This document shows positions 12,759 through 64,000 of a stretch of 64,000 bases of DNA, in pieces; positions within the stretch are counted from its first letter, which is position 1, and every line of letters starts with the position of its first letter. Under the pieces are notes generated by a model. The model saw nothing but the letters and a program-made list of their open reading frames with translations, was not told where the DNA came from and made no database searches. A program made the position numbers and the translations under genes. The DNA is from Astropecten irregularis (taxonomy: Eukaryota; Echinodermata; Asteroidea; Paxillosida; Astropectinidae): contig OZ020244.1 in the NCBI GenBank assembly GCA_963971285.1, positions 27,156,001 to 27,220,000 on the forward strand. Reading direction: 5' to 3'.

Positions 12759-15700
12759 GCCCTGTAGAGCCTTTCGTCGCCTCGTGAATTTAAAGTTTGT
12801 TACAACGACAGCTTTAAGAGGTAAGATTGTTTGATTTCATGGAAACTTAGCACCATTCTTTGGTTTGCAAACACACTGTCAAGATTTTGTGATCTTTAAA
12901 TCTTCTCAAAAGCTAAAAAGTAGGTGGACATTATCACATTTGCACATTTGATTTGAGTGATGCAGTGTGTATGATGAGCTGCAGTCTGACTGCAGTGTAG
13001 TAATGAATGGAAGTTGAAACTGTGCGACAGAGGGCGCTATATAGCTTCTGTGCCATACGTCAGTGAGTTTTGGCCACCTAAAACAAATCCATTATTTAAG
13101 TTCTTAAAGAGCTAAAATGAGATAGAAACTTGCAGCAAATGTTCTCAAATCCTTAAATTTAAAACCCTAACGTTAGTAAAGAAATTTTGAAAAAATTTTC
13201 AGTGTAATAAAAATACAATCAAATACGACACCAGGCCAGCAGCAAATGCCGGGAAAACGGAAAAGTTAACCTAATAACTATGACCCTAGGGCCTCCGTTT
13301 CCTAGGGCCTCCGTTTTCCCACTTGTTGCAAATTGCCTGTCCGCACTTGCATCCCGCAACGTTCTGGTGTGGGTAGTCTCAGTCTGTTTAGTCCTGTTAG
13401 TGTAATAATACCAGACCCATCAGATCAAGAGTTGTCCTAATCAGACCGGAAAACTTTATTCAGCTAAGGATTTCGTATGTGAAATGTCGCATATATTAGT
13501 TACCATTCCCCCCATAATTTCCCTCAAAATAGAAAGCTCTGACCGCCTTCCACAAATTAAACCTTGCTAATATAATCAAGATCGAGGACACCACCACTAT
13601 CATATTTAAGTAGACCCAGTAACTGGGGTGCTGAACTTCCTTTTTTTAATTTTGGGGTTGACAGTCGGTATAGCACCCCAGAGAATTGCATAGGCTTAAA
13701 TGTACACAGAAAAAATTGTAGTTTTTGTACTTAACCAATGGTACTTGCGATGAAAATGTCCCCAAATGATAACAAAGTCATCATAGATCGGCTTGAAAAT
13801 CGCTCAGTCTCTTCTCAGATTGTCAGGGATGAAATGCAGCTTATCAAAACCCAGGCGATCACGATCAGACGGCGGCCATTTTGTGTGGCTCTGTTCCACA
13901 CATTTTTGCCGGCAAAAATATGAGTGTAAAGTTCGGAGCCACCTGTTTTTATCATTTGTATTGTTTCCAATATCTCGATAGGTTCTTCTCATCCAAAGCT
14001 GCATCCCTTCTACATCAGAAGATACACAATCCCACAGAGCCAGTCCTCCACCTTGCCCACAGAGCCCAAAGCCCACACATCATGGCAGCTGCTGAGTGCC
14101 GTCTGCCTGGAGCGATACCCAGTCTTGTCTCAAGATCTCGGAGAAATGGAGGCAAATTACAAGGGAATGCTTGAAACCGTTGAGCTTGAGAACAGTCTGC
14201 TCTCGGACCATGAGCTGCAACTTGCACAGGACAAGTACGAAATTATGCAAATATTTGTCATATATCACATTTTGCTTTTTTAATACTTTGGCATTTTACA
14301 AAGCGGCAAGGGTCTGCAATGCCCCCTCACCCAAGAAGGGATGGCTAAATCAGGACCATGGTTTTTCTCTTATGTCTGTGGTACTAATTATAATTCTTAC
14401 TTATTCGACACATGCCATCTCTTTATTTTTATGGTTTGAATTTGTTTGTCATCCTTTAGGGAGAAGGCTTTGAGGAGGCAGAGTGGAGCTGAGGAGGATG
14501 ATGATGATGGTAGTGAGCTTGTCTCTGCCTTGGATCTAGAAGACCAGTATACTGAGGAGCTGAATCAGTTTAATCCAGCCAGCAGGGTTTCAGGTAGTCT
14601 ATGATTTGTTGTCTGACATCGCACAGGGGTGGAAAGTGTCACTTTAATATCCCTAGCCCTCTGCATGTTATGTAACCCTAAACCTCTGCATTTACTGTTC
14701 CTGTATGTGAAAATATCAACCCAATTAAATTTCTGTCAACTCATTTGTGTTTTTGTTTTTTTTCAGAAGCTGACAACCTACAAAGTCTTCAACGACAGCT
14801 GCTGGATAAACTGGTGCTGTTGGTGAAGTGTAAAGTTGGTGATAAAAGCCTATGGATGATGCCTCAGGGTACCAGACAAGATGGAGAGTCCATGAGACAG
14901 GTCTGTTGTGGTTACATTCGGAATTGGCTACGGCTTGATTGTACACCAGTCTATGGCAGCCAAGCTGCAGCTGCTTCCCATAGACCTGTGTGTAATTTCA
15001 AGCAGTGTAGTTAGTATCAGATTTCTAATTGAGATACTTGACCTTCAAATTAATCTTGTCAGTTTCCCTTGTGGTTATTTGATGATAATATTGATTTAAA
15101 ATCCGCATCCTAATAGTGATCAACTATGTACTGTTTCTCAGGTTGCAGCATTGCAGCTGCGAGTATCGATAAAATGGTCCTTGGGATATAGCGGTATTTG
15201 AGTGGTTTCATGGCTTCTGACTGCCAAACGAACACCGCCAACATAGGGCTGGATAGCTAAGTTTGAAAAGCGCTGGTACGGTACTCTGAAGATTGCTGGT
15301 TCAAATCCCACTCCAGTCAATGTGTTTTTGTTCACTTTTCAATGATTTGAAATACTTAAAGGTGACTCTGCTTCATCAGAGGGAGAACTTCTTGTTGTAA
15401 CAGCCGTACTTCAAACTGAAATAATATACAGTACTAGTCTTGCGTCAATTGAACCATGCACATCTATGGCGGATCCCTCTTTTTAAAGTTCAGTGTATTT
15501 GCTCAGATGAGGCACAAGTCTTATGTAATGGGAGACTTTTGAGACGTTAGCGGCAGCAGACTAACTCTCTTTTTGCTATCACTGAGCATGCGCGCGCAAT
15601 TGTGAGCATGTGCGCGTTGTTGTGCGCCTGCGTGCGCGTGCGCTATCAAGTTCAATACCCAGCTCCAAAGTCTCCCATTAAAAGCTCTTAATGCTGGAAA

Positions 15701-17937: not shown

Positions 17938-18236
17938 TCTCAGGTTGCATCATTATTAATGCTGCACGTATCTCAGATGATCCTTGGGATATAGCAGTAT
18001 GTGACTATGTGAGTGGTTTCATGGCTACTGACTGCCAAATGAACAAAGATAATTGACTATTGGGGACGGACACCACCAACATAGGACTGGATAGCTCAGT
18101 TGGTAAGAGTGCTGGTACGGTATTCCTGTGGTCACTGGTTTGAATCCGCCTCAAGTCAATTTTTCTTTGTTCACTTTTCAAATGACTTAAAATTAATCCA
18201 GTCAGTTTCCCTTGTGGTTATTTGATGATTATGCTT
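17938..18236 (+). mobile_element. tRNA-derived SINE
   Basis: Full-length copy with A box TAGCTCAGTTGG, a mutated B box and tail CAGTTTCCCTTGTGGTTATT. Confidence 0.7.
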
Positions 18237-24400: not shown

Positions 24401-27400
24401 AATCACCTCTTGGAAGTCACTTAGTCTGGCATGGCCTACCTTACTGCTCCCTGTACCAGGATCACTGGTCTGTTTTTGTAGGACATGTTGGAGCGTTGCC
24501 TTGGTGTCTGCTGGACTAGCCTGGATCGAGGACAAAAATTGAAGAGTTTTTAAGCAATCAAAAAGAATTTCCTGTGTCGGTACATCTGATTTAACCATTT
24601 TGTTAACAAAATTGTTTTGTTGAGTTCCTGTGAATGATTCTACGAAGAGAAAGGTGCAGTAAATGCAATTTGGCATCCCAAAGTTGTAACCAAGACGGAG
24701 TGGACAGTGCTCGGAATAAGGCAAAAGGGATGGACCGATGTACATGCCAATCAAACTCTGACATGTTTATTTTATTTTCCACTACTGGCAAATGACAGAC
24801 AATACTTACCAAAAATATCATCAAAATATGAGAATAGCTTGTCCAGTATATCATAAAGAATCTTTTGATGTCCTGAACCAAGAAATTTGTTTAAAATGTC
24901 TCAGGTTTTAGCATGCCGACTGCACCCCAAAGAGAAACACACCATGACAGAGCTCTCTTTCAGGCAATGATACCTCAATTTTAGATGTGAGACTCGCTGC
25001 CCATTTGGGGATTTTCTATTAAGACACAAATGGTTTTTATGTGATAAACTAGCGCCCTTACCTTCTTCATGAGCATTGCAAAGCCTGCATCGGCTGCCCC
25101 GACCGTGAAGCCAAAGCCTTCCGCCCCACCAGCCCCCTTCTTTGCAGCATTGGCCTTGGACGAATTCATGCTCTTGGCCCAACGTGCCATGTCTTTTGCA
25201 AGCTGCCGGAAAAGTACAGTGTTATTATACTGCTTATTAAGTAAGTCATTATATTATTCTTCTGCAAGCCTACCAAATAAGGATGTATTGCAATCTTCTT
25301 CTTATCGAGTCACTACACTACTCCAGTGCTGCACACAGATCCTTGACTGGTAAGTCGTATCTCGAGTTAAGATCAATAGTAGGGCTTCGTGAAATCGACC
25401 CCTGGCCTCATAGGTGCCAGAAGGAAGGGACTCAGTTTGGGTAAGAGAGATCTATGTATGGTGACAGGCTTAGCTAACCTTCTTGGCCATCTTGTTCTTG
25501 TCATTCTTATCCTTCTTGTCTTTCTCCTTGGTTTTCTCTGAGGCTTTGTCCGAGGCTTCCTGGTCCACCTTGGCAGTGGTTTGTTCGGGCTCTGGTTTGG
25601 CTTCCGGAGCTGGGAGGTAGGTGGATGCCGTGGCGTCCCAGTACAAGTACCTCTGGGTCACGCTATTGAAGTAATAGTGTGAATTGGCATCATAGTAGAG
25701 TCCAACGGTAGCATCGTAATAGAAACCAGACATCTCATCGTACTGGTACTTGGATACGTCCGGGCTGGGATACTTGATGCCCTCGACAAACACCACCGGG
25801 ACTGCAGGAGCAGCAGTCTCTCCACTAGAATCCTGCAGACGACCAAAAAAAAAATAATCCAACAGTTGAACAATCTAGCCTCATCATGAAATGCAACTCG
25901 AAACTTTCTGATTTTGGGGAGTTTCTTGCAGACCTGCACACCAGGGCCCAACTTTATAGAATCCGTTACCATAAGCAAAAATTCTTTGCTTACGATAGCA
26001 GAATTTTTTGCTTACGGATAGCATATTTCAGGGGTTTAGTTTTCTTTCTCGCTATGCTAAGCAAGGAATTTCTGCACTGCATTAGCAGAACAAAATCAAG
26101 GATAGCCTAGAAATTCTTCGCTAACCGATTAAGCGCCAAACATCTTGCTTACGGATTCCATGAAATAGATTTCACGAAAAGCAGTGCCCGTAAGCACACA
26201 AATAGTTTGTAACGGATTTCATGAAATTGGGCCATGCTTAGACATGTACTAAAGAAGTTGTACACTTTACATGCTGGTAACTATACATCTGGAGTAAAAT
26301 CATCCTTGAATCTTAAAAGGAAGACAACTAAACTTGTTGACTGCTAAGGCAAGTAATGTTTATGATTTGTGGCAGGAAGTTATAGAATAACAGGCTGTTA
26401 TACTCACTTGTTTCTTCCTCCTCTTCTTCTTGCTTGTTGCCGTGGCAGCTCCTCCCTCATCCCTCTCACCAGCCGTCCTCTCCAACTCCGCCTCCTCCTC
26501 TTTCTTCCGCTTCTTCTTCTCCGTCCACTGCCTGGACTTCTCATTGAGGGCCTCCTCACTTTCCTCTCCAGCTGCTGACGCTGCTGTGGAGACCACTGTC
26601 CCCGCCACTAATGCTGCTGATAGTGATACTGGCTCAGCAGTCTGAGCTGCTAATGCCGCCACGTTCTTCCTGGCTTCCTCTTGCAGCTTAGCGGTGACTA
26701 TAAGCTGCTGCTGCAGCTGCTGCTGTTGCTGGAAGATTAGGATTTTTTTAAATGAAGACAGCAAAGTTTAACACACAAGATAGATTTCAATGAAACTGCG
26801 AGCCCGTTTGTTTCAGGCACGAGATCAGTGATCCTGCTGATCCGGATCCCATTTTAGTGTATCCTGCATTGGACGTGGATCTGCAAGATCACTGATCGCG
26901 TGCCGAAACAAACAGGCCCCACATGTTAACCATCGAATGGGAAACAATGACCGGTTGTTAATCTGCAATTACGCAATTCCTTCCTTGCAGACGAAATATC
27001 GAGAAAAATTCTACAATAGCTACAGGTACATGTAAAGCATTGATTCAAGTACTTGAGGAAAACCTTTGTGGAACACTCAGGCCGTGTCTGAAACGGAATT
27101 CCACAGCTACGGCTAGGACTATTGTCTAGGTGTCTCTGCGTATTTCCAATGGAGTGAAGACCTAGACCTAGCTCTAGACAGGAGATTCGGATGCAGCCTC
27201 AATTGTGACTTTCATTTACTTCTGTGAAAGAGACAGTTGCATACCTGTAGCTGTAGCTGTCTGGCTGCTTCCACTTGCTCCTGGGCCACAGTGGCTTTAT
27301 CTATCCACAAAACAACAAAAATGACATCAATGAGACAATCGTCTTCATGAATCAGCAAGACTATTGGGCAAATGAACTCAAACAAGCGATATAACAACAC

Positions 27401-30400
27401 TGAAATGCCCCCCCAAAAAGGATTCGCTGCCCTGCGGTCAAACCAACAATGGAAGCCAGAGGAGTTGTACTAGGAGCCATCTCAATGTCTGTTTCTTTAC
27501 TAATACTTGCTAATCAGGAATTTCAGCAGGGGCCAATTTCATGGAGCAGTTAAGCACAACAAAAAAATAACTTAGCACAAAATGTCTTGCTCAATAAAAC
27601 AAACCACCATTAAAAATTCCATTAGATATTCATGGTCAGCGAAAAACAGACAAACAACAATCACAAGAGATACACAACACATGAAAATTTGCCTGCGAAT
27701 CCTGTTTTTATTAAGACAGAAATTTTATGGTTAGCAAACATTTTTGCTAAAGCAGGGCCGTAAAATTGGCCCGAGATTGGTTCAGTGTTCCTACTCACAT
27801 TGGTCCTTGTGAGCCGGTACGACTGCCGCCCTCTGTAGGGTCGTTGATGCTGTAGCATTGGTTCCGATCACAACGCCTGGTGCTGGGTAACCGGCCTGAC
27901 CTGGTAGCCCTGTGCTAGCTGCCGGGATGATATGTGACTGGTAGGGGAACCCCTGGGACTCTGTCAGTTTTGTAGGGTCAGCGTTGCCTTCTTGGTAATA
28001 GGCGGTACTGGCAGCAATGTCGGAGGATGGTTGGGTGGTGGCTTCTACATTGTGGGTGCCATACTGTCGGATAATGAATATTTATGAGTTATATCTCATG
28101 CATATGCAAGAGTTGCATGCATATTCATTGTCAAAAAACATTGACAAAATTTACATTAGAAATAGGGCAGAAACTGCCTTGATGTGGAATAACTACATCT
28201 TCTAGTAGTTTCCTTAAAGAAACTGCTTAAACCCTCCTAGCTTAGCATCTTTTGCTTAACCATCTTTGTGTGAACAGAGAATGCTATACATTTACCTGAC
28301 AAATCTGCATTAAACAATATGCTATAACATTTTGTTTTACTTTTAAAACTTAGATAACTTACTGCTGACCACTTGGGTTCAATAGCCGCAGGATTGGTGA
28401 CCCTTGAAACGTCAGGAACGCGTTGCTTGCGGAAGTGAACCGATACTGCGAGACAAAAACGTACAAATTAATCAAGACCATGAGGATGATTGGTTGATCG
28501 TGGTATTAAACTTATGCTAGCCACGGATAAGTAATCCGTCAATTTCATAGAGCTGCTTAAGCACAAAATTTGCTTAAGCATGAAAAGTCTTCCTTGAACA
28601 ACCAAAACTGCCAACCAAATATTAAAGTGGCACTTACTGCTTTTGTCTTGTATTCGGCCATTGTATGCTAAGCATAACATTCACAAGGCGTCGAGGATGG
28701 CATGCTAATATTATTTAAGGTTTTTGGCACTAAAGCAGATATATGAAATTGGCCCCAGGGTTATGAAAATGGCAAGTGCCAAAATAATGTCAAAATAAAT
28801 GTCTGTGTTATAGCTTGATAGACATTAATGCACTTCATGTAGACACACAGCACGATCCGAGGCAGTGCTGCAGAAGATAATTGAATATCATCAAAGGAGA
28901 CTTGAAAATAAATTGTACACTAAAAAAAAATGAAAATTGGATTTGGAACAAAAAATAGAAATAAAACTGAAAAGTTGCATCTCAACACAAAATTGCTGAA
29001 GAATTCAAATACACAATCTACAGCACCAATGCGCTGTTGTTCTTATACATTGTCACGTCAATTGCTACTTTATATGTAGTCATACAATAGGTTCCTCCCT
29101 ACACTAAAGCCTATCTCGGCTGATTTCAGTCTCACCAGATTTGCCGTCAATCTGAAACGGCGGCTGCATGGAGGCCAAGATGTTCATGAGGTGCGTGGCC
29201 GTTTCCGGTGTGCTCATCTCCACGTAGCAGTAGCCCCGTGAGGTGTGGGTCAGATCGTCCCGGGCGATGCTGATGACCATATGGGCAGAGGAGATGTACT
29301 CCAGGACTTTGGTCACCATCTCCTCCGTCGTCAAGGCGTCCAAGCCCATCAGAATCAAAACTGATGTTCAAGGGTGAGATGAGATAGAAGGACCAGGTTT
29401 AATATACTACTGGATGTTTTGTGGAGTAATAGGTCGACAGTTTGCTGAGGTTGGGGTGTGATGGAAACTGGTATCACTGGATGTTTGAGACCTGCTATCA
29501 CAAAATGTCAGAAGGTGTCATCAGACCGTCCAGACGCAGCGAGGCAGCATTTCACTGGCCTTGCAAGACAGTGACCCATGTACAGTTGGAAAAGCTCTCT
29601 ACCGGTTCAAATGAGTGAACAATATCATCTCAATTTAGAGTTGTTGTAACTTCCCAACTACTCCACATGAAGTGCATCTTGGTGTCTAGTTACGGAGAGG
29701 CAAAGGGTAGTAAAGGGACAAGTTTCTGTCCTAACAAGATGTGCTCATCAGTATCATAGACACTCTTAACTTAACCCTCTTAATCTTAAACCTAACGCTC
29801 TCCACCTGCCACACAAGACAGAGCTGCCTACTACACATTACCACAGTCTCCGCAAGGAAAGTGGATCATAACCCGTGCATTATCACGCACACCACACTGT
29901 GGATCACACACTGTGGTGTATTGTGGTACAATGGAACGCCACTATACCGAACATTTGGATATACCAAACATCATCCTTGGCTCCCAAATTTTGTGTACAA
30001 TGTATAGGCATGCTGAACATTGTTCACTATAAGGAACAACCACTATGACGAACAATTCTGTGCATCCCGGCATGTTCGTTATAGTGGCGTTCCACTGTAT
30101 TTAGGATACCATATTTACCACAAGGAGACCATGTGTGGTAAACTGGTATGGAGGTGGGTTAGGGTTAATAGGGTATTGAAGAGCAGGCAATGTGTTTCTT
30201 TCCAAGCATGAAATGGCTCACCATTTGACGCTACATCTCCTATTTCACTGTATCTCTCCGAATCTATGGGTGAAAGAAAAGACAAGGCAGAAATGAGAGA
30301 CCCATCATCACACATGGACGATTCTCCGGCATGTACTTCACAAGAACAGAATGTTTTTTTGGGGGGAGCTGGGTCTTGCTCTTCCAGAAGTCGAGGGGTA

Positions 30401-43934: not shown

Positions 43935-46900
43935 ATGGATACTTCAAGAAGTGAGAGTGTTGCCGTAGCAACATCTGACAAGCAAGAGAAAGAGGAAACG
44001 GGATGGGATCGGCTCAGACGAGTGTTCACCATTCAGCATGAGTAAGTCTAAAGATCAATCCGTCGTAAGTTGCGTATTGTCTGATGAAGGAGCATAATTA
44101 TAAACTTTAAACCCCATAGAGCGGGATAGCTCAGTTGGTAAGAGCGCCGGTATGGTATTCCAAGGGCCACAGGTTCAAATCCCACTCCATTTGTCTTTTT
44201 TCACTTTTGAATAACTTAAATTTATTCCAGTCAGTTTCCATTGTGGTTATTTGACCATTCTAGTCATAGATAAATCTATGTTTAATAATTTGTGTAATCG
44301 GACAAGTGTTATTTTCTTTTCATTCAGCCGTGATGATACTGAGATGCCTAGGGAACTGTATGAAATGTTCATAATGGCAACAATAGGCATGATGATGGGA
44401 TATGTGTATGGGGGAATCCCAGCAGGAAGACAAGCCAGGCAACGTTACATCCAGAAGAGTGGTGCAGCCATCTACAGCAGTCGTCTTGAAGCCACGGTAA
44501 GGAATTGTCTTTACCTTTTCTTTTGTTTTCTTAGTTTGTTTGTTTTCTTTGTCTGTTTGTTTGTTTGTTGTTTTTTTGACAGGGTAGGCAACCCTTTTGG
44601 AATACAGGGATGTGAGTGGCCACACACACAAGAATCTGAAAACACCAACACCAAGGAAAAGGATGAAATGTAAAAGCTCCTATACTTTTGTACAGAATAG
44701 GTGTACAAAAAACTAAGCTGAAATTTTGAGTTCAAATCTAAACCAAAAAATCAGAATTCAAATTAAAATCTGAATTTTTACATGTACATCCCTGGGAATA
44801 ATATTTAATTTTATGCGTTTTAATTTCTTCATTAACCCTAACCCAAATCCATATGTACATGTACCACAGTTGACCACTCATGGTTTTTCCTGTGGTAAGC
44901 GTGGTGTTTTGAATACCACAATACGCCATAGTATGGTTTGTGTGGTAATAGAAAAAATGCGTGGTTTACAGTTCCCCTGTGGAGACTGTGGTAGTGCGTG
45001 GTAAGCAGCTCTTGTCTTGGGTGCTAAGTTTGGTTAGGGTTAAATTGCTGTAGTTTTATTATCTCCAGTCAAGTTGTGTGAAATTTTTTTCTGGAAACAG
45101 GGAGCTTCCTACAATGCAGGAGTGAGGGGCTTCATTCGCTATGGGTATCGGTGGGGCTGGAGGACTGCCCTGTTGGCCACCAGCTTCCAGTAAGTGACCC
45201 TTGGTTGTATTGGGCCAATAGGAGAGAGTCCAGTTATGATTTTATCATTCGGTCAATACCGCCCTCAGACCACAGGACCTTTTAGGGCACCACTGCCACT
45301 TTGCTGACTTAGGGCCTTTCTCAAAGCTCAACTCTGGCTCAGACTCAGGCTCCAGTTGTGAATCCATTCTAAAATTACAGGTATCAAAATAGAGACATTT
45401 GGCTGCGATTTGGAAAATAGATTCTCTGGTTTGAAAAGGATAACAGCTTCAATGAAAAAGCACAACCTTTATTTTCACCATATGGATAGAGATGAAGCCG
45501 GAGCCGAGCATTGAGAAAGGCCGCCAACTTTAGCTCCTGTCGAGGCCGACATTATAGATGGGATTCCAACTGTCGTAAACCTTTTTTTAATTTTCATGGA
45601 TGTTTTCTTGGTTAATGTGCCTCAGATGGGTCTGATGCAGTTTCTCCTGACAGGGTGTTTGAGCATAAAGCCAGGCTTAAATCATCTTTCTCTTGCCCAT
45701 AACATAAGCTTGCGGAGAAGTGCAACTAAGAGCTAATCCAACAGCTTGTTTCCCATACTGCTTCTATTGGTTTTTCTTCCTTCTAGAAGTCATTCTAGTT
45801 AGTTTGAAGAGGAATATTCATTGCCATCTTTTCCGTGTGTGGGCTGTAGTTTTCCTGCAGCCTCGACTCAGCTACATGTAGAGTGCCACACAGTCTTGTT
45901 TTTGGAACAGTTAATCTAAGATTTTCTCCTCCTGTTTCTGAAATTAAGCAATTCCTCTTCATCTTCTTTCCATGAGTACCAGTAACTTTCAGGCTTGCAA
46001 GCTACGGTACTTGGGGCACTTTTGGTAGGTCCAGTATCACAAAGTAATGATAATTGTATGATTGGAGTGGGATTCGAACCTGTGACTCCCGGAATACCAA
46101 ACCTGTATGGTATTCTGGTATTCCAGGGGTTGCAGGTTCGAATCCCACTCCAATCCTATTTTTCTTTTTTCACTTTTCATTGACTTAAAATTAATCCGAT
46201 CAGTTTCAATCAGTTTGATGATAATTGTATGATATTTTAGCCTATGAGAAAGCTCCTGCTAGGATCGAAACGTGCCAGGCCTAACTCCAAGCATAATTCT
46301 ATGATGTTCATTTGTTACATACCTTCAAGTTGCCTTCATAATTTTCTTTCTGCTTTTGATTTGTTTTGTTAGTGGCATTAGTACAGGCTTGGCAGTGTAC
46401 AGAGATAAACAAAAACTGACAAACTATGTCACAGCCGCAGGTGAGTCAGTTTCATATTTCTGAATTCCCATTAACCCTACCCCCTTCCTCCCCCACCCCC
46501 ACCCCAGGTACATTTGGAATCTTTCTGAATCTATAAGAGCTCAAACCTGTGTAGTATCCCAAAGGTGTAAGACTTCACTTGGACCAAGCTTGGCCAGCAA
46601 GCCCCCATAAAAAGTCATCAGCTAGTCCTGGTATCTATAATCTAAGTCATTCTCCTGAGGACGAACAGAGCACACTGTTCGGAACGTCGAGATAATACCA
46701 CCGGTTCTTCTCAGAACCACACACTCTCACAGAAGAGATTACATGGTGTCACCGCAAACTTACCTTCATTTATCTATAATCTATAACCTTCAATATCCTG
46801 TAGTACCAGAATTGGATTTTTGCAAATTTTAAATGTTTGTAGCAAAGTATTGTCGAGAACCAGTAAGTTGCAAAACACTGGTGATATTTTAGTTAGTGAT

Positions 46901-52754: not shown

Positions 52755-52985
52755 ATGAGTTATGAGATATAGCGATATATGTGCATGGTTTTATGGCTTC
52801 TGACTGCCAAACAATTAGGGACACCACCAACAGAGGGCAGGGTAGCTCAGTTGGTAGAGCTCCGGTACAGTATTCCGGAGGTTACTGGTTCGATTCCCAC
52901 TCCTAATAATCCAGTCAATTTTTATTGCTCACTTTTCAACGACTAAAATTCAGTCAGTTTCCCTTGTGTTTAATAGATGATATTA
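52755..52985 (+). mobile_element. tRNA-derived SINE
   Basis: A box TAGCTCAGTTGG (52843), B box GGTTCGATTCC (52887), downstream of TIMMDC1. Confidence 0.7.
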
Positions 52986-53647: not shown

Positions 53648-53854
53648 TTAACCCTTACCCACCTCCATACCACAGTTTACCACACATGATTTGTCCTGTG
53701 GTAAGTGTGGTACCCTGAATACCACAATACACCACAGTGTGGTTTTTGTGGTAATAAATTATGTGGTTTATGTGGAGATGTGTGGTATGCAACTCTTGTC
53801 TTGAGTGTGTGGTAGGTAAGTGCATATAGGGCATAGAGCAATAGGTTGGGTTAA
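53648..53854. mobile_element. TTAACCCTA-family MITE
   Basis: TTAACCCTTACCCACC at left and GGTTGGGTTAA at right, downstream of twinfilin. Confidence 0.65.
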
Positions 53855-54147: not shown

Positions 54148-57100
54148 TTACTGATTATTCTCCTCCTTGACCAGTCGCCGTTGACCCCGCTTACCGGCCG
54201 GTCCTTTGGGCTTGGCGAATGCCGGCCGATGCACGTTACGGACGGGATGGACTTCGTCCATTAGGAAGGCTTCGGTCAGCACCTCTCCGCTGCTTATTTC
54301 AATCTAAGGGAGATGAAATGAAATCAAAAGATGTCACAGCAAACATAATGAAGTAATCAGTCAAATTAGCCAAATAAAATTGGATCTTTGCACACTGAAA
54401 CAGAATGTCATAAAACTGGACGACGAATCTGATTTAATAGCACAAAACAGGATTTTTTGGCCAATGCTGTTTAGCAGCTAAAATCTTTACCATATTATTG
54501 ATTATGATGGGCACACTAGCTTATTTAATCATGTTTGTTCAGTGTAGATGAATGCTAAATATGATTTTCTGCTTAGCGTAAATGCAGAAAATACTGCTTC
54601 AAAAAAAGTTATACAAAATAAACAAAAAACAACCGAACACCACACAGAAGGCAAACAATGTTTATGCAATTTGGATCAGTGAGACGTGTTAACTATTATT
54701 AAAACAGCAACAAGTTTCTGAGTAAAATAACATAGGGTAGGATAGCTCAGTAGGTAGAGCGCCGTCACAGTATTCTTGGGCTCACAGGTTCGAATCCCAC
54801 TCCAGTCACTTTTTCAGTTTTTCTTTGTTTACTTTTCATTCAATTAATTTGTAACTCCATAAAATCTGGCCACTTGTTGATTTTAATCATACTCACCCTT
54901 TTGACGCAACTAATTCCAAAATTGACTTCTAGCTGACTCATAAGAGGTCCCAGGCAACTTGTGTACAACATCCGCTCCTTGACTGGACACTTGTAGCCAG
55001 GCATCGAATATATGAAAACTGGTTGAGCAAGAAATCAGATTCCAAGGAAATATCAATTTCCGGAATGAAACTTTGACTTTAAAATGTGTTTATATGGTAT
55101 CTTCATACTTTGGATTTTGTCAAAAAACTGCAAATTCATAGGCAAAAATATCAAGAAAGATACATTAAGTTTATAACAGTCATCCGTGAAAATTCCAGTC
55201 CCATACGGTGCTCACTCTTTTGAGAAAACAATGAAAAACCCTCATGGTGTTTTCAAATCTTTTCACAGCAGTTTTGATCTCACCCAGAGACTCTTTCCTG
55301 GATATAGCATTTCAGGCAGAAAAATTATAACGTCTACCATCACCATCTTTATACCCTGTAATTATAAGTTATAGGTAAATCTGTGAACATTTCTGTTTTG
55401 GTATGCTACCAAATTCAAACTACAGTATTATATTTAATACGTGATCTCAGGTTGTGGCAACTGTATCTAGACAGACAGAAATTCCCTTGCAAACTCTTGC
55501 ATAATGTGTAAGAACACCTTCTACTGGGATTGGATCCCACATACTCGGACTGTGTGTAAACGCCTGAAATCGTGGACCCCTATTGTTCCTCTTTTGTTTG
55601 GCCATAACATTTTTGGCAGCAGCTCCATTGGTTTTGCACATGCTTTTCAGTTGTGGACCTTTTTCAAGTCATGGACCCTATTGTCCCTTTTGTTATTAGT
55701 CCACGGTTTGACTGCTGATCAAACTCACCCATACTCTCTTGGTAATCGCCTTCGTGCGTGTGTTTGAAGACAAATAGATGGTAGCCAGCCTGTTCTTCTG
55801 ACACCTTTGCTGGAAGACCGTCAACTCCAATACTGTCGGCGTCATCCAAATAAATTTCTTCTTTGGCTGTGTCAACACACTGAAGAAAAAAGAAATTGAA
55901 ATGGTCTTCCTAATTTTTCCTTCTTTTATTTAACCCTATTACACTCCACATTCACCACACAAGATAAGACATTACCACAGTGTCTACTGAAGGGGACTGA
56001 ATCATAAAACATGCATTACCACACAAACCACACTGTGGTGAATTGTGTATTCACTAACCACAACCACACTCACCACAACCACACTCACCACAACCACACA
56101 CACAACAGTGTGTGTTAAACTGTGGTATATAGGTGGTTTAGGGTTTAAAAATGCAAGTGGCCTACCACTTGGCCAATCACCCACTTCAAGTGACGCTATA
56201 CTGTATATGGAACATAACACATAATGGAACACATGGGGAAACCAGTCTCTTGCTTATGGAGACACCATGTACCGGTACACTCTTTTCGGAAGTTGTGTGG
56301 TCCTGAGAAAGACCAGTGAGAGAAAATATCTTGACGTTTCAGCCAGTGTACTCAGGCCGTCCTCAAGAGAGAGAGCCTGAAGACTCTCTCACACTCTCTC
56401 TCCTGAGGACGGCTAAAGCACAATGGCTGAAACGTCAAGATATTTTCTCTCACTTGTCCTTCTCAGGACCACACAACTTCCGAAAAGAAGTATACATGGT
56501 GTCTCTGCAAGCCTTACCTAGAGTTCAAGAATTTTGATCTCTATCTAGTACAAACAGGACAGGAAGTGATACCCAGTGCACCTTCTTCAGCAGGAATGAT
56601 AATCCATACAACGCCCCACATTAGCATCAACCAACTGAACAATGTACCAACCAACCACTACCATCTCACCACCATCTACCCCCTGGCATCAAGCCACCAC
56701 TCACCAGCCTAACATAGCTGATCTCTCCACCCTTCAATTCCACCAGCTTCTCCTTAGCCTCCTTGAGGATGGGGAAGGCGATGCCTCTTAGATGGCTCTG
56801 CTTGGTGGAGCTGCCGATGTCCATATGTCCTTCCTCCTCCTTCATCTGCTTCAGCTCTTCCTCACCAGCCGTCAGCGGTGCCGGGGCCTCATCGTGTGCT
56901 TTGTGCTTCAGATAGCCCTCATACGTCAATTCTGACTGTAGATTGGAAAGCAAGTAACACTCAGCGTGTGATATCAATTCTTTTTCCTTGAGAAGCCTAA
57001 CATGCTAGTCAGTAGTCACATGAATTGCAAATTACCCCTTTCAAACTACTTTACTAGTGCAAATGTATGAACATTATTTCACATATCCTTTGACAAATTT

Positions 57101-60100
57101 ATGAGGGTATAAAGGTGATGTCGATGTTGATGATCAACCTGATTATTCCAAAGCAAGTCTGGGGAGTCCAAAGGGCTCTTGACTAGTGTCAGCATACCAC
57201 GCCAGTGTTCCAATTTCATTTCATTTTTCATTTATTGTCCAAATGAAAAATTCCTCTTGTCTAGACACAAATAGGAATCGGAAATCATATATGACCTTGG
57301 TATCAGAAGTTCTAAAGTTTTTCAAATCAATGCTCAAAGTAGTGGAGAAAGTAAACATTTGGTGATTCAATGTATCATATATTACACGTACATGATCACA
57401 GAACAATCAAAAATGGTTTCATTAAAAGTATTAACAAACTGCTGCAAACTACTCATCAACCAAAAGAATGACCTCAAATATAAACAAGATGCTTGGGGTT
57501 AGGAAGGGTCTGACGTTTCATTCCCAGCAGAATCTGATTAGCCATGTAAGCCTTTGATGAGCATGTTGAGAAAGATCCTGCTAGGATCGAAATGTCAGAC
57601 CCTCCTATTAAACTCCAAGCAAAATAGATTCTTTATTAGGGCACCCCTTTTTAATTCTGCGGTTCTCATTTCCGACCGACCCATATTTTGGGCTCCGACC
57701 GAAGAAAAAAAAACTTTCTTTTTTGCCGCCGACCCTGTCAGAATGGCATAATATTAAAAAAATATGAAAACAAAACAGAATTCCCAGAATTTCTGGAGAC
57801 AGAATTTGTCTCCAAAAAATCTGGGAATTCTTTTTTTTTTTTTTGCCAATAGACCTCAATTTTTTACACTTTTTATCACTGAAATAATACAAAAATATTC
57901 AAGCGCGATTACAGTGAATACAATGAACATCATTTTCTTTAGGTTTTTGTGTATTCAGCCAGATTTTCTTTTCTACCAAACTTTTTTTTTTTTCGACCGA
58001 CCAACCCTCCCTCAAGGTGAAAAAGAAATGAGAACCATAGAATTAAATGGGAGCGCCCTTAGCAAAAACAACCTGTTGAAGTTTGTACATACCAGTAATA
58101 CCTCAATTACATGGTCATAACATTTTCCTTATCTGAATGTTTGATGCATCCCAAAAGACTGGAGTCCTGGCGTTAGTTTAATGAGTCAATAAGAGGAGCA
58201 ATGATGACCATTTATATACTCACCTTTGCCGTTGCAAATACTTCATCCCGTATCTGTCCTGTGCCAAATATCGTCTTCAGCGTTGTATTGGTTGCTGCAT
58301 AGACCATTTTTTGTTTCACCTAATGAAAGAATTAAATTAATCAACACAAAAGCTATAATTAATATTGCTATGAAAAATGACATGCCAGTTCAATAAAGGT
58401 TGGCTGTTGTGTATGCATTAGAACTTTAATTGAAAAGTTTTCCTTTTGTCCTTTTCTTTTCCATGAAAACATTACGTCATGTACGTCGACGCATGTGAGT
58501 CCACATAATAACGTCTTGGGATCCTGCATTATGTGGACACTCTTTGTCCTGAAATCCGCAGTGTGTATATTACAAGCGCACATTGGGACTGACCACACGT
58601 ACACAGAAAACATCCCCTACCTGAGCCTCATCCGGGGAGAACCTCATAAAGACCCACATGTACTGGCTCTGTGCGTCCTGTTCATCCAGACGGTAAAACA
58701 GATAACACGGCTCCTTGTCCTCTAGCAAAGGTTGGATCATGACGTCAAAATGTGTCCAAGTTTTACATCAAGGAAAAAACTGAGAATAGTGGGAATTCAC
58801 AATAAAGCCGTTTGCGCATATCTGCATGAAAACCGAGGCAATCTGTGCTGAACTTCAGCAGTGCCTCCGCTGTGGCCACTGGACACAGTACGACCTGCAT
58901 GGTTGACACGAACATCACACTCTCAGCTCAGGTATGAGTTGGCGTGCTTCGCTCTAGCAGGCCATGAAAGTGCATTGTGTATGTACACGTACATGCGTGT
59001 TTGAGACCTGCGTGAGCAGATCAATTGTAAATGCATTGTATTAGGATCCGTCTATGAAGTAACTTGCAATCAACATTCCCGATAAACGTATCTTCTCAGG
59101 ATGTGGAGATACAAACTCCTCCTTTATAACCTTCAAGGAACAATTTAAATTTCCAATAAATTGTAATCCAAAAGGCTCATGACTTAATCCTTAAGAAACT
59201 CTTCATCATCAACATTTTGACATTATTATTATTTCTGGTTATTAGAAATCAAGGATTCTTCAAGCTCCCTAGGCACTGTAACTTGAAAGCCTAATGAAGC
59301 ATTTTATGGAAAAAATGGTGAGAAGATGATACAGTTTTATTAGAGGTGGGAGAAAAACCCCAGAGTTATATTCTGGGTAAAACCCACAGAATCAGGTAGG
59401 GACTGAAAACCCAATCCACTTGTGGACCGAGCCGGAATCGAACCCAGGCTGCCAGAGGTGGAAGGCGAGGAGAGAACCGCCACCCCAACCTGACTCAACC
59501 TGTTTAACCCTAACCCACCTCCATACCACATTTCCACAAATGGCTTTTCCTGTGGTCATGGTGGTTAAGTGTAGTGTCCTGAATACCACAATATACCACA
59601 GTGTGGTTTGTGGTAATGCATGGTTTATGACCAGTTCCCCCTGTGCAGACTGTGGTAATGTGTGGTCATCAGCTCTTGTCTTGTGTGGTAAGTGCAGAGG
59701 GTTAGTGTTAATATCACTAAAACAGGGTCAACATTTCAGAAGTTGTTTTAGTACAAAATACAAATTCCATCCAAAGGATATCTTCTTCCCATGTTCCTGA
59801 CCCACAGCTGTGGTCTCTGGGAACCAGCTTCTCTGCCACTGAAATAAACAACAACATCAACGACTGTGTAAAACAACAAAATAAAAAACACATTGTACAT
59901 GTGAGCATGTGTGTCAGCAAGTAAACTGCTGCAAACTGCTCATCAACAAAAATAATGACCTGAAATTCATCAAGATGTATATATAGAGTTAAGAGGGCCT
60001 GGCGTTTCAATCCTAGCACAGTTCTTAGACATGTTAGAGAAACATCCCATGAGAGTCGTAACATCAGGCCACTCTAACTCTAAGCTTAAAATTCTGTTGG

Positions 60101-60723
60101 TAAAACAAATGCAATTGTGATTTACCCAAATCGATGCAAACCTTGATGACCCGGTGGTCATTCAGTTTGGCATCCGCAAACGCTTTCTTCAATTCATCAG
60201 ATGCTGCCAAATACAAATAGACGAAAATTGTTATAAGTCCAACTTCCAAGTATTAAACTGAGACACAAAAATTGGCTGTTGCAACCTGCAGCTAACCTAA
60301 ATCATGAAATAATATTTCTAACGTTAGTTTAAATAATTAATGTCAAGTGACCAGTGGTTCCTAAAACTTAAAAGTAAAACAATAAAGGAAAGGACAAGTG
60401 ACAAGGACAAACACATACTTTTTGACTGAAATGTTGGAGAAATTTCTTCAGTCTAGGCCGTTTAACTTTAAGGACTCTGGAACATACGTTACACTGAAAG
60501 TCAAAAATATCGTTTGGGAGCAGTAGACTAGTTGCTATAGGCCTATAAAAAGTTGCTTTCATTTCCTATTAACTTAAGAAACCACTTTCCTTCAAGTTAA
60601 TCATTGGGCCTACATGTAGTTTTGGGAACCACCACTTGTCCACAATTACCAAAATATCTTTAAAAAATCTGAAACAGATGATGATTGCAGATACTTACCT
60701 TTGATTCCAGTCTGATGTGACAT
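54148..60723 (-). CDS. TWF1: Twinfilin, actin monomer-binding and capping-protein-binding protein
   Basis: Cytoplasmic regulator that sequesters ADP-actin and binds capping protein. Exons in transcript order: 60699-60723, 60126-60203, 59782-59838, 58621-58751, 58224-58319, 56705-56935, 55729-55879, 54897-55018, 54148-54303; 1047 nt, 348 aa plus TAA (human TWF1 350). It starts [21 protein letters not shown] domain 1 (about 5-135) includes [20 protein letters not shown] and [13 protein letters not shown]; the linker includes [20 protein letters not shown] domain 2 (about 170-300) includes [20 protein letters not shown] and [19 protein letters not shown]. The tail [16 protein letters not shown] matches the family's capping-protein-interaction and basic region. 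Intron 3 reads as AT-AC, U12 type (separate entry); the others are GT-AG. Vertebrates have TWF1 and TWF2; this may be the single ancestor, so the symbol is approximate. Confidence 0.93.
54733..54845 (+). mobile_element. tRNA-derived SINE, truncated
   Basis: A box TAGCTCAGTAGG (54743) and B box GGTTCGAATCC (54787); antisense to twinfilin, 50 bp from its penultimate exon. Confidence 0.65.
55930..56148. mobile_element. TTAACCCTA-family MITE, diverged
   Basis: TTAACCCTATTACACTCC at left, TTTAGGGTTTAA at right; a CCACAACCACACT tandem run has expanded inside. Twinfilin intron 6. Confidence 0.6.
56258..56516. mobile_element. Near-perfect foldback (GAGACACCATGTA...)
   Basis: About 115-bp inverted arms (CGGAAGTTGTGTGGTCCTGA and complement; TATCTTGACGTTTCAGCCA and complement) around a GAGA-rich loop at 56386-56400. 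Related, more diverged palindromes lie at about 8288-8587 and, as halves, at 46655-46765 and about 6337-6390. Twinfilin intron 6. Confidence 0.65.
57425..57625. mobile_element. Palindromic repeat (GATCCTAGCAGGATC family)
   Basis: Both arms, in twinfilin intron 5. Confidence 0.6.
57632..58064. mobile_element. MITE with AGGGCACCCCTTTTTAATTC ends and an inner palindrome
   Basis: Right end GAATTAAATGGGAGCGCCCTT. A second palindrome GAATTCCCAGA...TCTGGGAATTC lies at 57778-57830, with several long T and A runs. Twinfilin intron 5. Confidence 0.55.
58752..59781 (-). other. AT-AC U12-type (minor spliceosome) intron in twinfilin
   Basis: The minus-strand donor after the exon ending GAAGAAG is ATATCCTTT, a perfect U12 AT-AC 5' splice site. 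Near the 3' end, TTCCTTGAT (58767-58775) matches the U12 branch consensus TTCCTTRAY, and its branch A lies 16 nt before the junction ...GGACAC. Joining there gives [16 protein letters not shown] in frame with twinfilins. A U2-type join fails: the only nearby AG (CTCAG) leads into an in-frame TGA, and the next AG (GCTAG) would delete conserved residues. Intron length 1030 nt, phase 1. Confidence 0.88.
59504..59711. mobile_element. TTAACCCTA-family MITE
   Basis: TTAACCCTAACCCACC at left, GGTTAGTGTTAA at right. It lies inside the U12-type intron of twinfilin, 70 bp from the donor. Confidence 0.65.
59918..60098. mobile_element. Palindromic repeat (GATCCTAGCAGGATC family), diverged
   Basis: Both arms recognisable but mutated, in twinfilin intron 2. 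Confidence 0.5.
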
Positions 60724-61300
60724 GGTTCTCGAGAACTGTTCTGTTGCTGAATGTTAATTAAAGCCGAACTAAAGTTCTAACGTTACTGCGCTGCCCTTTG
60801 GCCCCCCTTTGGAGTTTTGGCAACCAATAACAAGACCTGAGTCGATCAATATAAATAAAACGGCAGGTTGACAGTAATATTACACTATGACGTCCTCCAA
60901 GTATGGACAGTAATAGTACAACTATTCAATGGCAACCTATTTCCTTTCGCTAGTTTACTTGATTACTTTCACAAACCAGGAAGCCGGCAGCAATCCCTCT
61001 TTCATGCAAATCACGTTTAGTGGGCGTCTGGTCTATATCCTTTAATACCGGCATCGGTGATTGGCTTAATTATGGCCAGTTGCGCAGATGTGACCAATTA
61101 AATTCGGGGTAGCATGCTGCAAAAACCTCGCCCTTTGCCCTTCGCTTTTAAAGATGGCGGCGCCCATGGAACACCCGCGTCCTGTGCACGGGTTTTTGCG
61201 CGGCAAGAAGTTTAGAGTTACCAAGATATTAACGGGCTAGCATGCCCGTTAATCAAGAGATTACGGTACATGTAGACAATCTCTTTTGAAAACATCGAAA
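60724..61300. promoter_or_regulatory. Divergent promoter region twinfilin / DDX20
   Basis: Head-to-head start codons 577 bp apart. AAGATGGCGGC at 61151-61161, a strong YY1-type word, lies 150 bp before the DDX20 ATG and just downstream of an inferred G+C-richer core. No TATA box is evident. Activity is inferred from gene orientation and the motif. Confidence 0.55.
61151..61161 (+). promoter_or_regulatory. YY1-like site upstream of DDX20
   Basis: AAGATGGCGGC fits the YY1 consensus closely and lies between the divergent twinfilin and DDX20 starts. Confidence 0.45.
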
Positions 61301-63949
61301 ATGGCTCATGACTACTCTATGAAAGATCGCACAAGCGATGTTTTGAATGACCACAACAAAAATATCGACTTCGCATCGTTGTTACTGTCACCGGACGTTT
61401 TGACTGGGCTGTCACAGGCAGGATTCGAGCGCCCATCTCCTATACAGTTAAAAGCAATACCGTTAGGGCGATGTGGACTAGGTGATCAAATTATTTGTTA
61501 TTGTCATTAATTATTTAGGCCTATGGCTATTATTATCTTCTAACTTTTCATTTCAGTCTCGTTTACTTTTTTAGTACTAGGGGGCCTACCGACTACCGGT
61601 ATATACAACAAATACTAATGAACTAAATCATTACGTTATCCCTACTGCCCAGGCCTAATTTGGGCAAAGATTTTGTAAGTAGCCTAATAAACTTCTGAAA
61701 ACTGCTTATAATAACATGTAGGCCTAAATTTTATAAAATCAATGTCAGACAAGTTGACCGTGAGACAACTCGACTTGAGACAACTTTACCACAAAGACAA
61801 CTCGACTCCAAGACAACTTGATTTCAAAGACAACTCGACTTCAAAGACATCTTGACTCCGAGAAGTTGTCTTTGTAGTCGACCTGTCTCAGAGTCGAGTT
61901 GTCTTTGGAGTGGAGCTGTCTCAGAGTCTAGTTGTCTTTGCAGTCGAGTTGTCTCGCGGTCGACTTGTTCGGTACCCTATAAAATCCTTGGATGGCCTGA
62001 TGCGTTTCGAATTCGATCCTAGCAGGATCTTTATCTTTATACTACATATGTAATTAAAGCCTTTGATAAAGATCCTGCTACTAGTACTACTACTAACTTA
62101 GGATAGAAACACATCAGGCCCTCCTAACTCCAAGCATAAATAATTTAAAAGATTTGACATTTATTTGACATTTTCGTGGCAAATATATTGCATTTAATAA
62201 ATTGAAGTGAATTATTTATGTAGTGTAAAGTTTTTAATTCAATAGCACAATTTTATTCATTTCCATTTAGGCCTAATTACTGATTTATTGAAAACATTCC
62301 CATATAATGTTTTCCCACCATGCAGATTTGATTGTCCAAGCCAAATCAGGAACGGGGAAGACGTGCGTTTTCAGCGTCATCATCTTAGAGAGCCTTGACC
62401 TGCAATGTGCCAACGTGCAAGCCCTCGTTCTGACTCCAACCAGAGAGATAGCCACCCAGGTGCAAGGAGTCATCCAGTCCATAGGGGGCGCCTTCCTGGG
62501 CTTGAGGTGCCATACGTTCATTGGTGGTACACTCTTTGGGCCAGACCGTCAGAAGCTGAAGAAGTGTCACATAGCCGTTGGTACCCCAGGTACATACAAA
62601 TATTACATCCTTTTTCAAAGCCAAATTGAAGGTCCAGAAAAATTAAAACTCATGGTATTAGGATTAGCCCATATCAGAAATTTTCTGACTGCCAAACAAA
62701 CAAAGATAATTGACTATTAGGGACACTGCCAACATAGGGCTGGTTAGCTCAGTCAGTTTTTCTTTGTTTTTAAACTTGTTAAAGACTTAAAACTTAATCC
62801 AGTCAGCTTTTCTTGTGGTTATTTGATGATTGTATCAATGAAAACAAAACAAAATTGCATCCTCTTTGAGTGATCCCCGGACCCCCATGTACCGTTTCTC
62901 AGGTTGCAGCATTGCTAATACTGCACATTAGCATGGGATATAGTGGTATGTGAGTGGTTTCATGGCTTCTGACTGCTAAACGAGCAAAAGATAATTGACC
63001 ATTAGGGACACTGCCAACATAGGCTAGATAATAGGCTAGATAACTCAGTTGGTAAGAGCGCCGGTACGGTATTCTGGAGGTCGCTGGTTCGAATCCCTCT
63101 CCTGTCAATTTTTCTTTGTTCACTTTTCAATATCAAAGAGAGGGACTATGAGGCATCTTATAAGTAGCATCTTATGACTGAGTGGCAAACATTTTCTGTT
63201 TTGTAGGTCGTGTGAAGCAGCTGATAGAGTACTCTGTTATGCCGACAGACAGTATCCGCCTGTTTGTTCTAGACGAGGCGGACAAACTGCTCGAGGAGAA
63301 ATTCCAGGATCAGATCAAGTGAGCTCATTATGTCATGTTAATACAAGAAGACGAGGGGTGCAGTCATCCTGGCAACTTCTAAACCGATACCATCCCCAAA
63401 TCCACATCAAGTTTATATATTGTTGGACAGGAGCCTAGGCCCCATGATGGCCCAGCTTGTTCCAAATGTAAATACTGTTCCATGGGATACTGTGTCTAGT
63501 ATAAAACGTGGTGCAGATTTTAGAAGATGGTTAGGCTTTGAGCAGCACCTCATTGACACATTTGGGAGGGAGAGGCTTTTTGAACATCTTGGGACAAGGT
63601 TGATAGGTTTCCTATTCCTTATCCATTGAAAGAGCTTTTTACACAACACATTGAGAGATTGCCACAAGTTTTCCATATGCCAGGATCAGATTAGAGATTT
63701 GAATGAGTGGGGGAAGCATTTTTCTCGAATATGACTAAAATGGAAATTCATCCAAGGAGAAGCTTTCAACTAATAGTCTTGAACTTTTTTGTATGATTTG
63801 AACCAGCTGGATCTACAACCACCTGCCGGTCAACAAGCAGATGCTTGCCTTGTCTGCTACGTACCCGGAGACCCTGGCTCGAGGGCTGACCGCCTACATG
63901 AGAGATCCTACCTTTGTCCGTCTGAATCCCAGGAACGTGGCCCTCAAAG
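61301..63949 (+). CDS. DDX20: DDX20 (Gemin3) DEAD-box helicase, 5' part; 3' end beyond window
   Basis: DEAD-box RNA helicase of the SMN complex (snRNP assembly). Exons: 61301-61481, 62326-62589, 63207-63318, 63807-63949, the last ending in a GTTAGT donor; 233 complete codons, with the rest off the right edge. Visible helicase motifs: Q motif ([16 protein letters not shown]), motif I AKSGTGKT (about 67-74), motif Ia PTREIA, IGG/VGTPGR (Ib region), motif [12 protein letters not shown], motif III SAT (LSATYPE), then [12 protein letters not shown]. The leader is shorter than in human. The first intron sits between the Q motif and motif I and joins as [14 protein letters not shown]. Intron 2 contains two SINEs in a row. 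Confidence 0.94.
61749..61968. mobile_element. Foldback palindrome with GACAACTCGACT tandem arms
   Basis: Left arm: five degenerate units of AGACAACTCGACTCCA; right arm: their inverted complements (TCGAGTTGTCTTTG). The outer ends ACAAGTTGACCGTGAGAC and GTCTCGCGGTCGACTTGT pair. It lies in DDX20 intron 1. No protein and no clear target duplication seen. Confidence 0.65.
61985..62145. mobile_element. Palindromic repeat (GATCCTAGCAGGATC family)
   Basis: Both arms, with a small ACTAGTACTACTACT insertion in one; DDX20 intron 1. Confidence 0.55.
62680..62845 (+). mobile_element. tRNA-derived SINE, deleted between A and B boxes
   Basis: Family leader then TAGCTCAG fused directly to the 3' tail (TCAGTTTTTCTTTG), so the middle of the tRNA part is missing. 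First of two head-to-tail copies in DDX20 intron 2. Confidence 0.65.
62848..63140 (+). mobile_element. tRNA-derived SINE
   Basis: Full leader, A box TAACTCAGTTGG, perfect B box GGTTCGAATCC (63086); lies directly after the preceding copy. Confidence 0.7.
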
Positions 63950-64000
63950 GTTAGTCATTACATCTGTTGACACATCACTTGCATTTGTGGACAAGCCCAC

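Follow-up and report, generated by a model that had tools for sequence, protein, structure and literature searches.

The third of the eight introns in a predicted twinfilin gene begins with AT and ends with AC, and the signals at its two ends, together with the place at which they stand in the reading frame, make it very probably a U12-dependent, minor-class intron. The gene lies in the window, by which we mean the whole stretch of DNA that was analysed (64 kb). Here nine exons on the minus strand, running from 60723 down to 54148, join into a single reading frame with both a start and a stop codon, encoding a product of 346 aa. The exons are as follows.

60699..60723, minus strand, exon 1 (MSHQTGIK), followed by a GT-AG intron
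60126..60203, minus strand, exon 2
59782..59832, minus strand, exon 3, ending in ...WEE and the first base of an Asp codon
58621..58751, minus strand, exon 4, beginning with (D), the rest of that codon, and 12 further residues
58224..58319, minus strand, exon 5
56705..56935, minus strand, exon 6
55729..55879, minus strand, exon 7
54897..55018, minus strand, exon 8
54148..54303, minus strand, exon 9, including the stop codon

The predicted product contains two Cofilin_ADF stretches, and its two ADF-homology domains followed by a conserved tail give it the make-up of a twinfilin. By sequence alignment, residues 1-341 correspond (E 1.1e-109) to the PDB chain 7ccc_B, a Twinfilin-1, and the best nine among the 25 PDB matches listed comprise eight that bear the name twinfilin and a ninth called 'A6 gene product', an older name for twinfilin. 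Seven of the eight introns have GT-AG ends, the third being the exception, so in other respects the gene model is unremarkable; the other introns span 293-1288 nt, a range that includes the 1030 nt of the AT-AC intron. At the start of exon 3, a tandem acceptor (CAGTGGCAG, 59833-59841, minus strand) offers two in-frame AGs at a spacing of 6 nt, of which the upstream AG would give an alternative exon start at 59838 and the downstream AG gives a gapless alignment. The AT-AC intron itself has the following features.

58752..59781, minus strand, predicted U12-type AT-AC intron, third of eight, 1030 nt, phase 1
59773..59781, minus strand, 5' splice site ATATCCTTT of the AT-AC intron, agreeing with the published consensus
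58767..58775, minus strand, branch-like site TTCCTTGAT, with the presumed branch A at 58768
58752..58755, minus strand, tandem acceptor ACAC, in which the frame is kept only by the second AC (ending at 58752) and not by the first (ending at 58754)
59504..59711, no strand assigned, TTAA-flanked MITE within the AT-AC intron, bounds set by eye

The first bases of the intron are ATATCCTTTGGA and the last are TTCCTTGATGTAAAACTTGGACAC. When the donor ATATCCTTT was compared with the U12 donor consensus /RTATCCTTT, as it is quoted in PMC2846911, all nine positions agreed, giving an extended 5' splice site. The branch-like site, read as TCCTTGATG, differs at three of nine positions from the strict consensus UCCUUAACU quoted in the same source. 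Compared over eight positions, TCCTTGAT differs from TCCTTAAC at two, and on this comparison of consensus sequences the site belongs with TCCTTAAC-like branch sites. The site fits a looser branch pattern, TTCCTTRAY, whose RAY ending allows both of the departures from TCCTTAAC. In pairing with U12 snRNA, G-U wobble would still be expected to accommodate two of the three differences from UCCUUAACU (A to G, C to T). The initial annotation had described both donor and branch site as matching the consensus exactly; this is right for the donor, and for the branch site its departures make 'exactly' too strong a word, since it fits the loosened consensus only.

AC dinucleotides end 8, 14, 16 and 24 nt past the presumed branch A, and only the one at 16 nt, which is the distance originally annotated, is in frame. 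The optimum distance between branch site and 3' splice site is given as 11-13 nt in the relevant part of PMC3584512. By eye, a run of T precedes and overlaps the branch-like site, and no distinct polypyrimidine tract is seen in GTAAAACTTGGACAC, which follows it. Minor introns are described as biased away from phase 0, which averages 22%, and phase 1 of the twinfilin intron agrees with this bias.

The AT start and the AC end sit where the frame is kept, as expected of the AT-AC subtype. Joining them yields, in frame, a 16-residue segment that aligns without a gap to WDKDYDSFVLPLLEDK of 7ccc_B, and the predicted junction 59782/58751 reads ...GAAGAAG on the exon 3 side and ATTTTGAC... on the exon 4 side. 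The placing of the intron at 59781..58752 (minus strand, 1030 nt) in the initial annotation was correct to the base. Extended upstream, the exon 4 frame stays open only as far as 58767, the stop falling within the branch-like site, and this stop prevents the closest AG before the acceptor from serving in that frame.

GT-AG introns are the usual rule, and the gene's other seven introns follow it, so we weighed the possibility that the third is also a GT-AG (U2) intron, with the exon ends lying elsewhere or with a further, unrecognised exon separating exons 3 and 4. Single joins between exon 3 donors at 59829-59613 and exon 4 first bases at 58900-58641 were scored by comparison with the N-terminal portions of two Twinfilin-1 chains. 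There were 18806 such joins in frame and 4698 stop-free, and the AT-AC join was among three tied at the top of the latter, all three encoding the same protein; the best GT-AG join, in contrast, ranked 1349th of 4698 and drops ten residues. Models with two GT-AG introns were built with an internal exon of 6-200 nt and gave 26242 in frame and 5180 stop-free, the best of which scored 330.5 compared with 356.5 for the AT-AC join and loses nearly the same segment as the best single GT-AG join. Both sets of GT-AG models (4698 and 5180 stop-free) were rejected by score, and an extra exon with GT-AG introns, named at the outset as a competing case, finds no support among the 5180 models; a GT-AG intron at this place is thus extremely improbable.

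The other two joins in the three-way tie have AT-AT and TA-CA termini. They differ from the AT-AC join by a shift of one or two bases in the cut, which leaves the protein unchanged, so that the exact cut is set by the consensus and not by the protein; of the three, only the AT-AC join begins with a U12 donor and has U12 termini. AT-AC introns removed by the major (U2) spliceosome do exist, for example in sodium-channel genes according to the passage concerned in PMC2831892, and their terminal dinucleotides are like those of the twinfilin intron. However, the sodium-channel introns of this type carry G at +5, whereas the base at +5 of the twinfilin intron is C, within a full ATATCCTTT donor. 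A U2-type AT-AC intron was rejected on account of this C, and removal of the intron by the major spliceosome is accordingly most unlikely.

To judge how often such motifs arise by chance, their counts over both strands of the 64 kb were compared with 300 first-order Markov simulations. RTATCCTT sites numbered 8, compared with a control mean of 4.2 (5.7% of controls reach 8), ATATCCTTT sites numbered 3, compared with a mean of 0.79 (4.3% reach 3), and TTCCTTRAY sites numbered 4, compared with a mean of 3.5 (47% reach 4). The single donor-branch pair found on the same strand within 10 kb compares with a control mean of 1.05 (reached by 56% of controls), and this pair also has its terminus, one case compared with a mean of 0.50 (reached by 35%). 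Since chance yields about one donor-branch pair per 64 kb, the motif pair alone proves nothing. The joint chance of finding a donor in the 21-nt zone and a branch site in the 13-nt zone set by the protein was about 5e-7, a figure for which the zones were picked after the site had been seen and the window frequencies include the site itself. As far as the sequence goes, the convincing point is that both motifs lie at the places the protein demands, and not the motif pair itself.

For the U12-dependent reading, the signals, their position and the frame are taken directly from the DNA, and removal by the minor spliceosome would follow from what is well established about signals of this kind. On this reading, ATATCCTTT and TTCCTTGAT would be recognised jointly by the U11/U12 di-snRNP, after which U6atac would displace U11 at the donor, and a cut between 59782 and 58751 would keep the ADF-homology frame. 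Points against this reading are a branch site that is off the strict consensus, a distance of 16 nt that exceeds the optimum, and ACs nearer to the branch A that are out of frame. Scanning the 64-kb window with Rfam gathering cut-offs gave no minor snRNA, a result that is hardly informative for the genome as a whole, and an ortholog look-up in viral contigs gave three pattern matches with no relative among them.

Compatible with the U12 AT-AC reading is the further idea that both ACs of the ACAC acceptor serve as splice sites, leaving part of the transcripts frameshifted. The first AC, at 14 nt from the branch A, is nearer to the published optimum, and some frameshifted product is therefore possible; against this, the frame is kept solely by the second AC, and we consider use of both ACs doubtful. 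That twinfilin is a so far undescribed minor-intron gene in which the minor spliceosome's choice within ACAC sets productive against frameshifted transcripts, and in this lineage thereby regulates from within how much twinfilin is made, is a good deal less probable still. Among the papers searched, none linked twinfilin, TWF1 or TWF2 with minor or U12-type introns, or twinfilin with the minor spliceosome, and where twinfilin and such introns were named in one paper they stood in unrelated places; the gene lists of intron databases may include twinfilin. In broader searches, none of the matches listed combined a term for twinfilin with one for minor or U12 introns.

The TTAA MITE, noted earlier at about 70 bp from the donor, is real: it lies 70 bp inside the donor, and both donor and branch site are untouched. 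Six other stretches in the window match it by blastn (near 2763, 29783, 30117, 44832, 53648 and 55969), and those at 29783 and 30117 may be one copy. The family has TTAA flanks, is rich in ACCACA/TGTGGT words, and occurs in several copies, in both orientations, within the 64 kb. Copies delimited by eye include 53648-53854, 55930-56148 and 59504-59711, of which two lie in introns of twinfilin and the third just past the gene. A twinfilin intron also holds an inverted repeat (56281-56488) with 100-nt arms that are 90% complementary and 8 nt apart. Elsewhere in the window, tRNA-like stretches lie on the plus strand at 15247-15319, 18085-18158, 52836-52905, 54736-54808 and 63034-63107; two are barely above the Rfam tRNA cut-off and three are below it, the latter having a common 60-nt repeat, and ARAGORN found no tRNA in these stretches. 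They are probably a tRNA-derived SINE family.

Head-to-head with twinfilin, a DEAD-box helicase gene (Pfam DEAD) occupies 61300-64000 on the plus strand and seems to run past the end of the window; for 100 of its residues the top PDB match, among the best 60 of 100 matches, was DDX20 (Gemin3), with E 3.4e-31. An OCRE domain is encoded at 25470-25874 on the minus strand (E 8.1e-17), in what may be a gene for an RBM5/RBM10-like splicing factor. A histone 3' UTR stem-loop lies at 46698-46742 on the plus strand, above the Rfam cut-off.

Gene predictors limited to GT-AG and GC-AG introns would misplace twinfilin exon 3 or 4, and an extra minor intron is useful for tracing how U12 introns have been gained, lost and converted in animals. 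As to its kind, the twinfilin AT-AC intron adds a further case to a well-known type and is in this sense ordinary. The initial annotation had called AT-AC introns a small minority of U12 introns, which overstates their rarity, their share being 8-47% in the tabulated animals having any U12 introns (Table 2 of PMC7367187). For mouse and human, PMC6717393 gives shares of about 24% and 22%, respectively. The mouse twinfilin-2 gene has nine exons according to the section of PMC3158069 that describes it, the same number as in our model. Animal U12-type AT-AC introns, as collected in U12DB, IAOD and MIDB, likewise have a ATATCCTTT donor, phase 1 and a TCCTTRAY-like branch site near the AC end, and likewise occur as a single such intron among GT-AG ones; compared with the optimum for these introns, the branch site of the twinfilin intron is weaker and lies further from the end.
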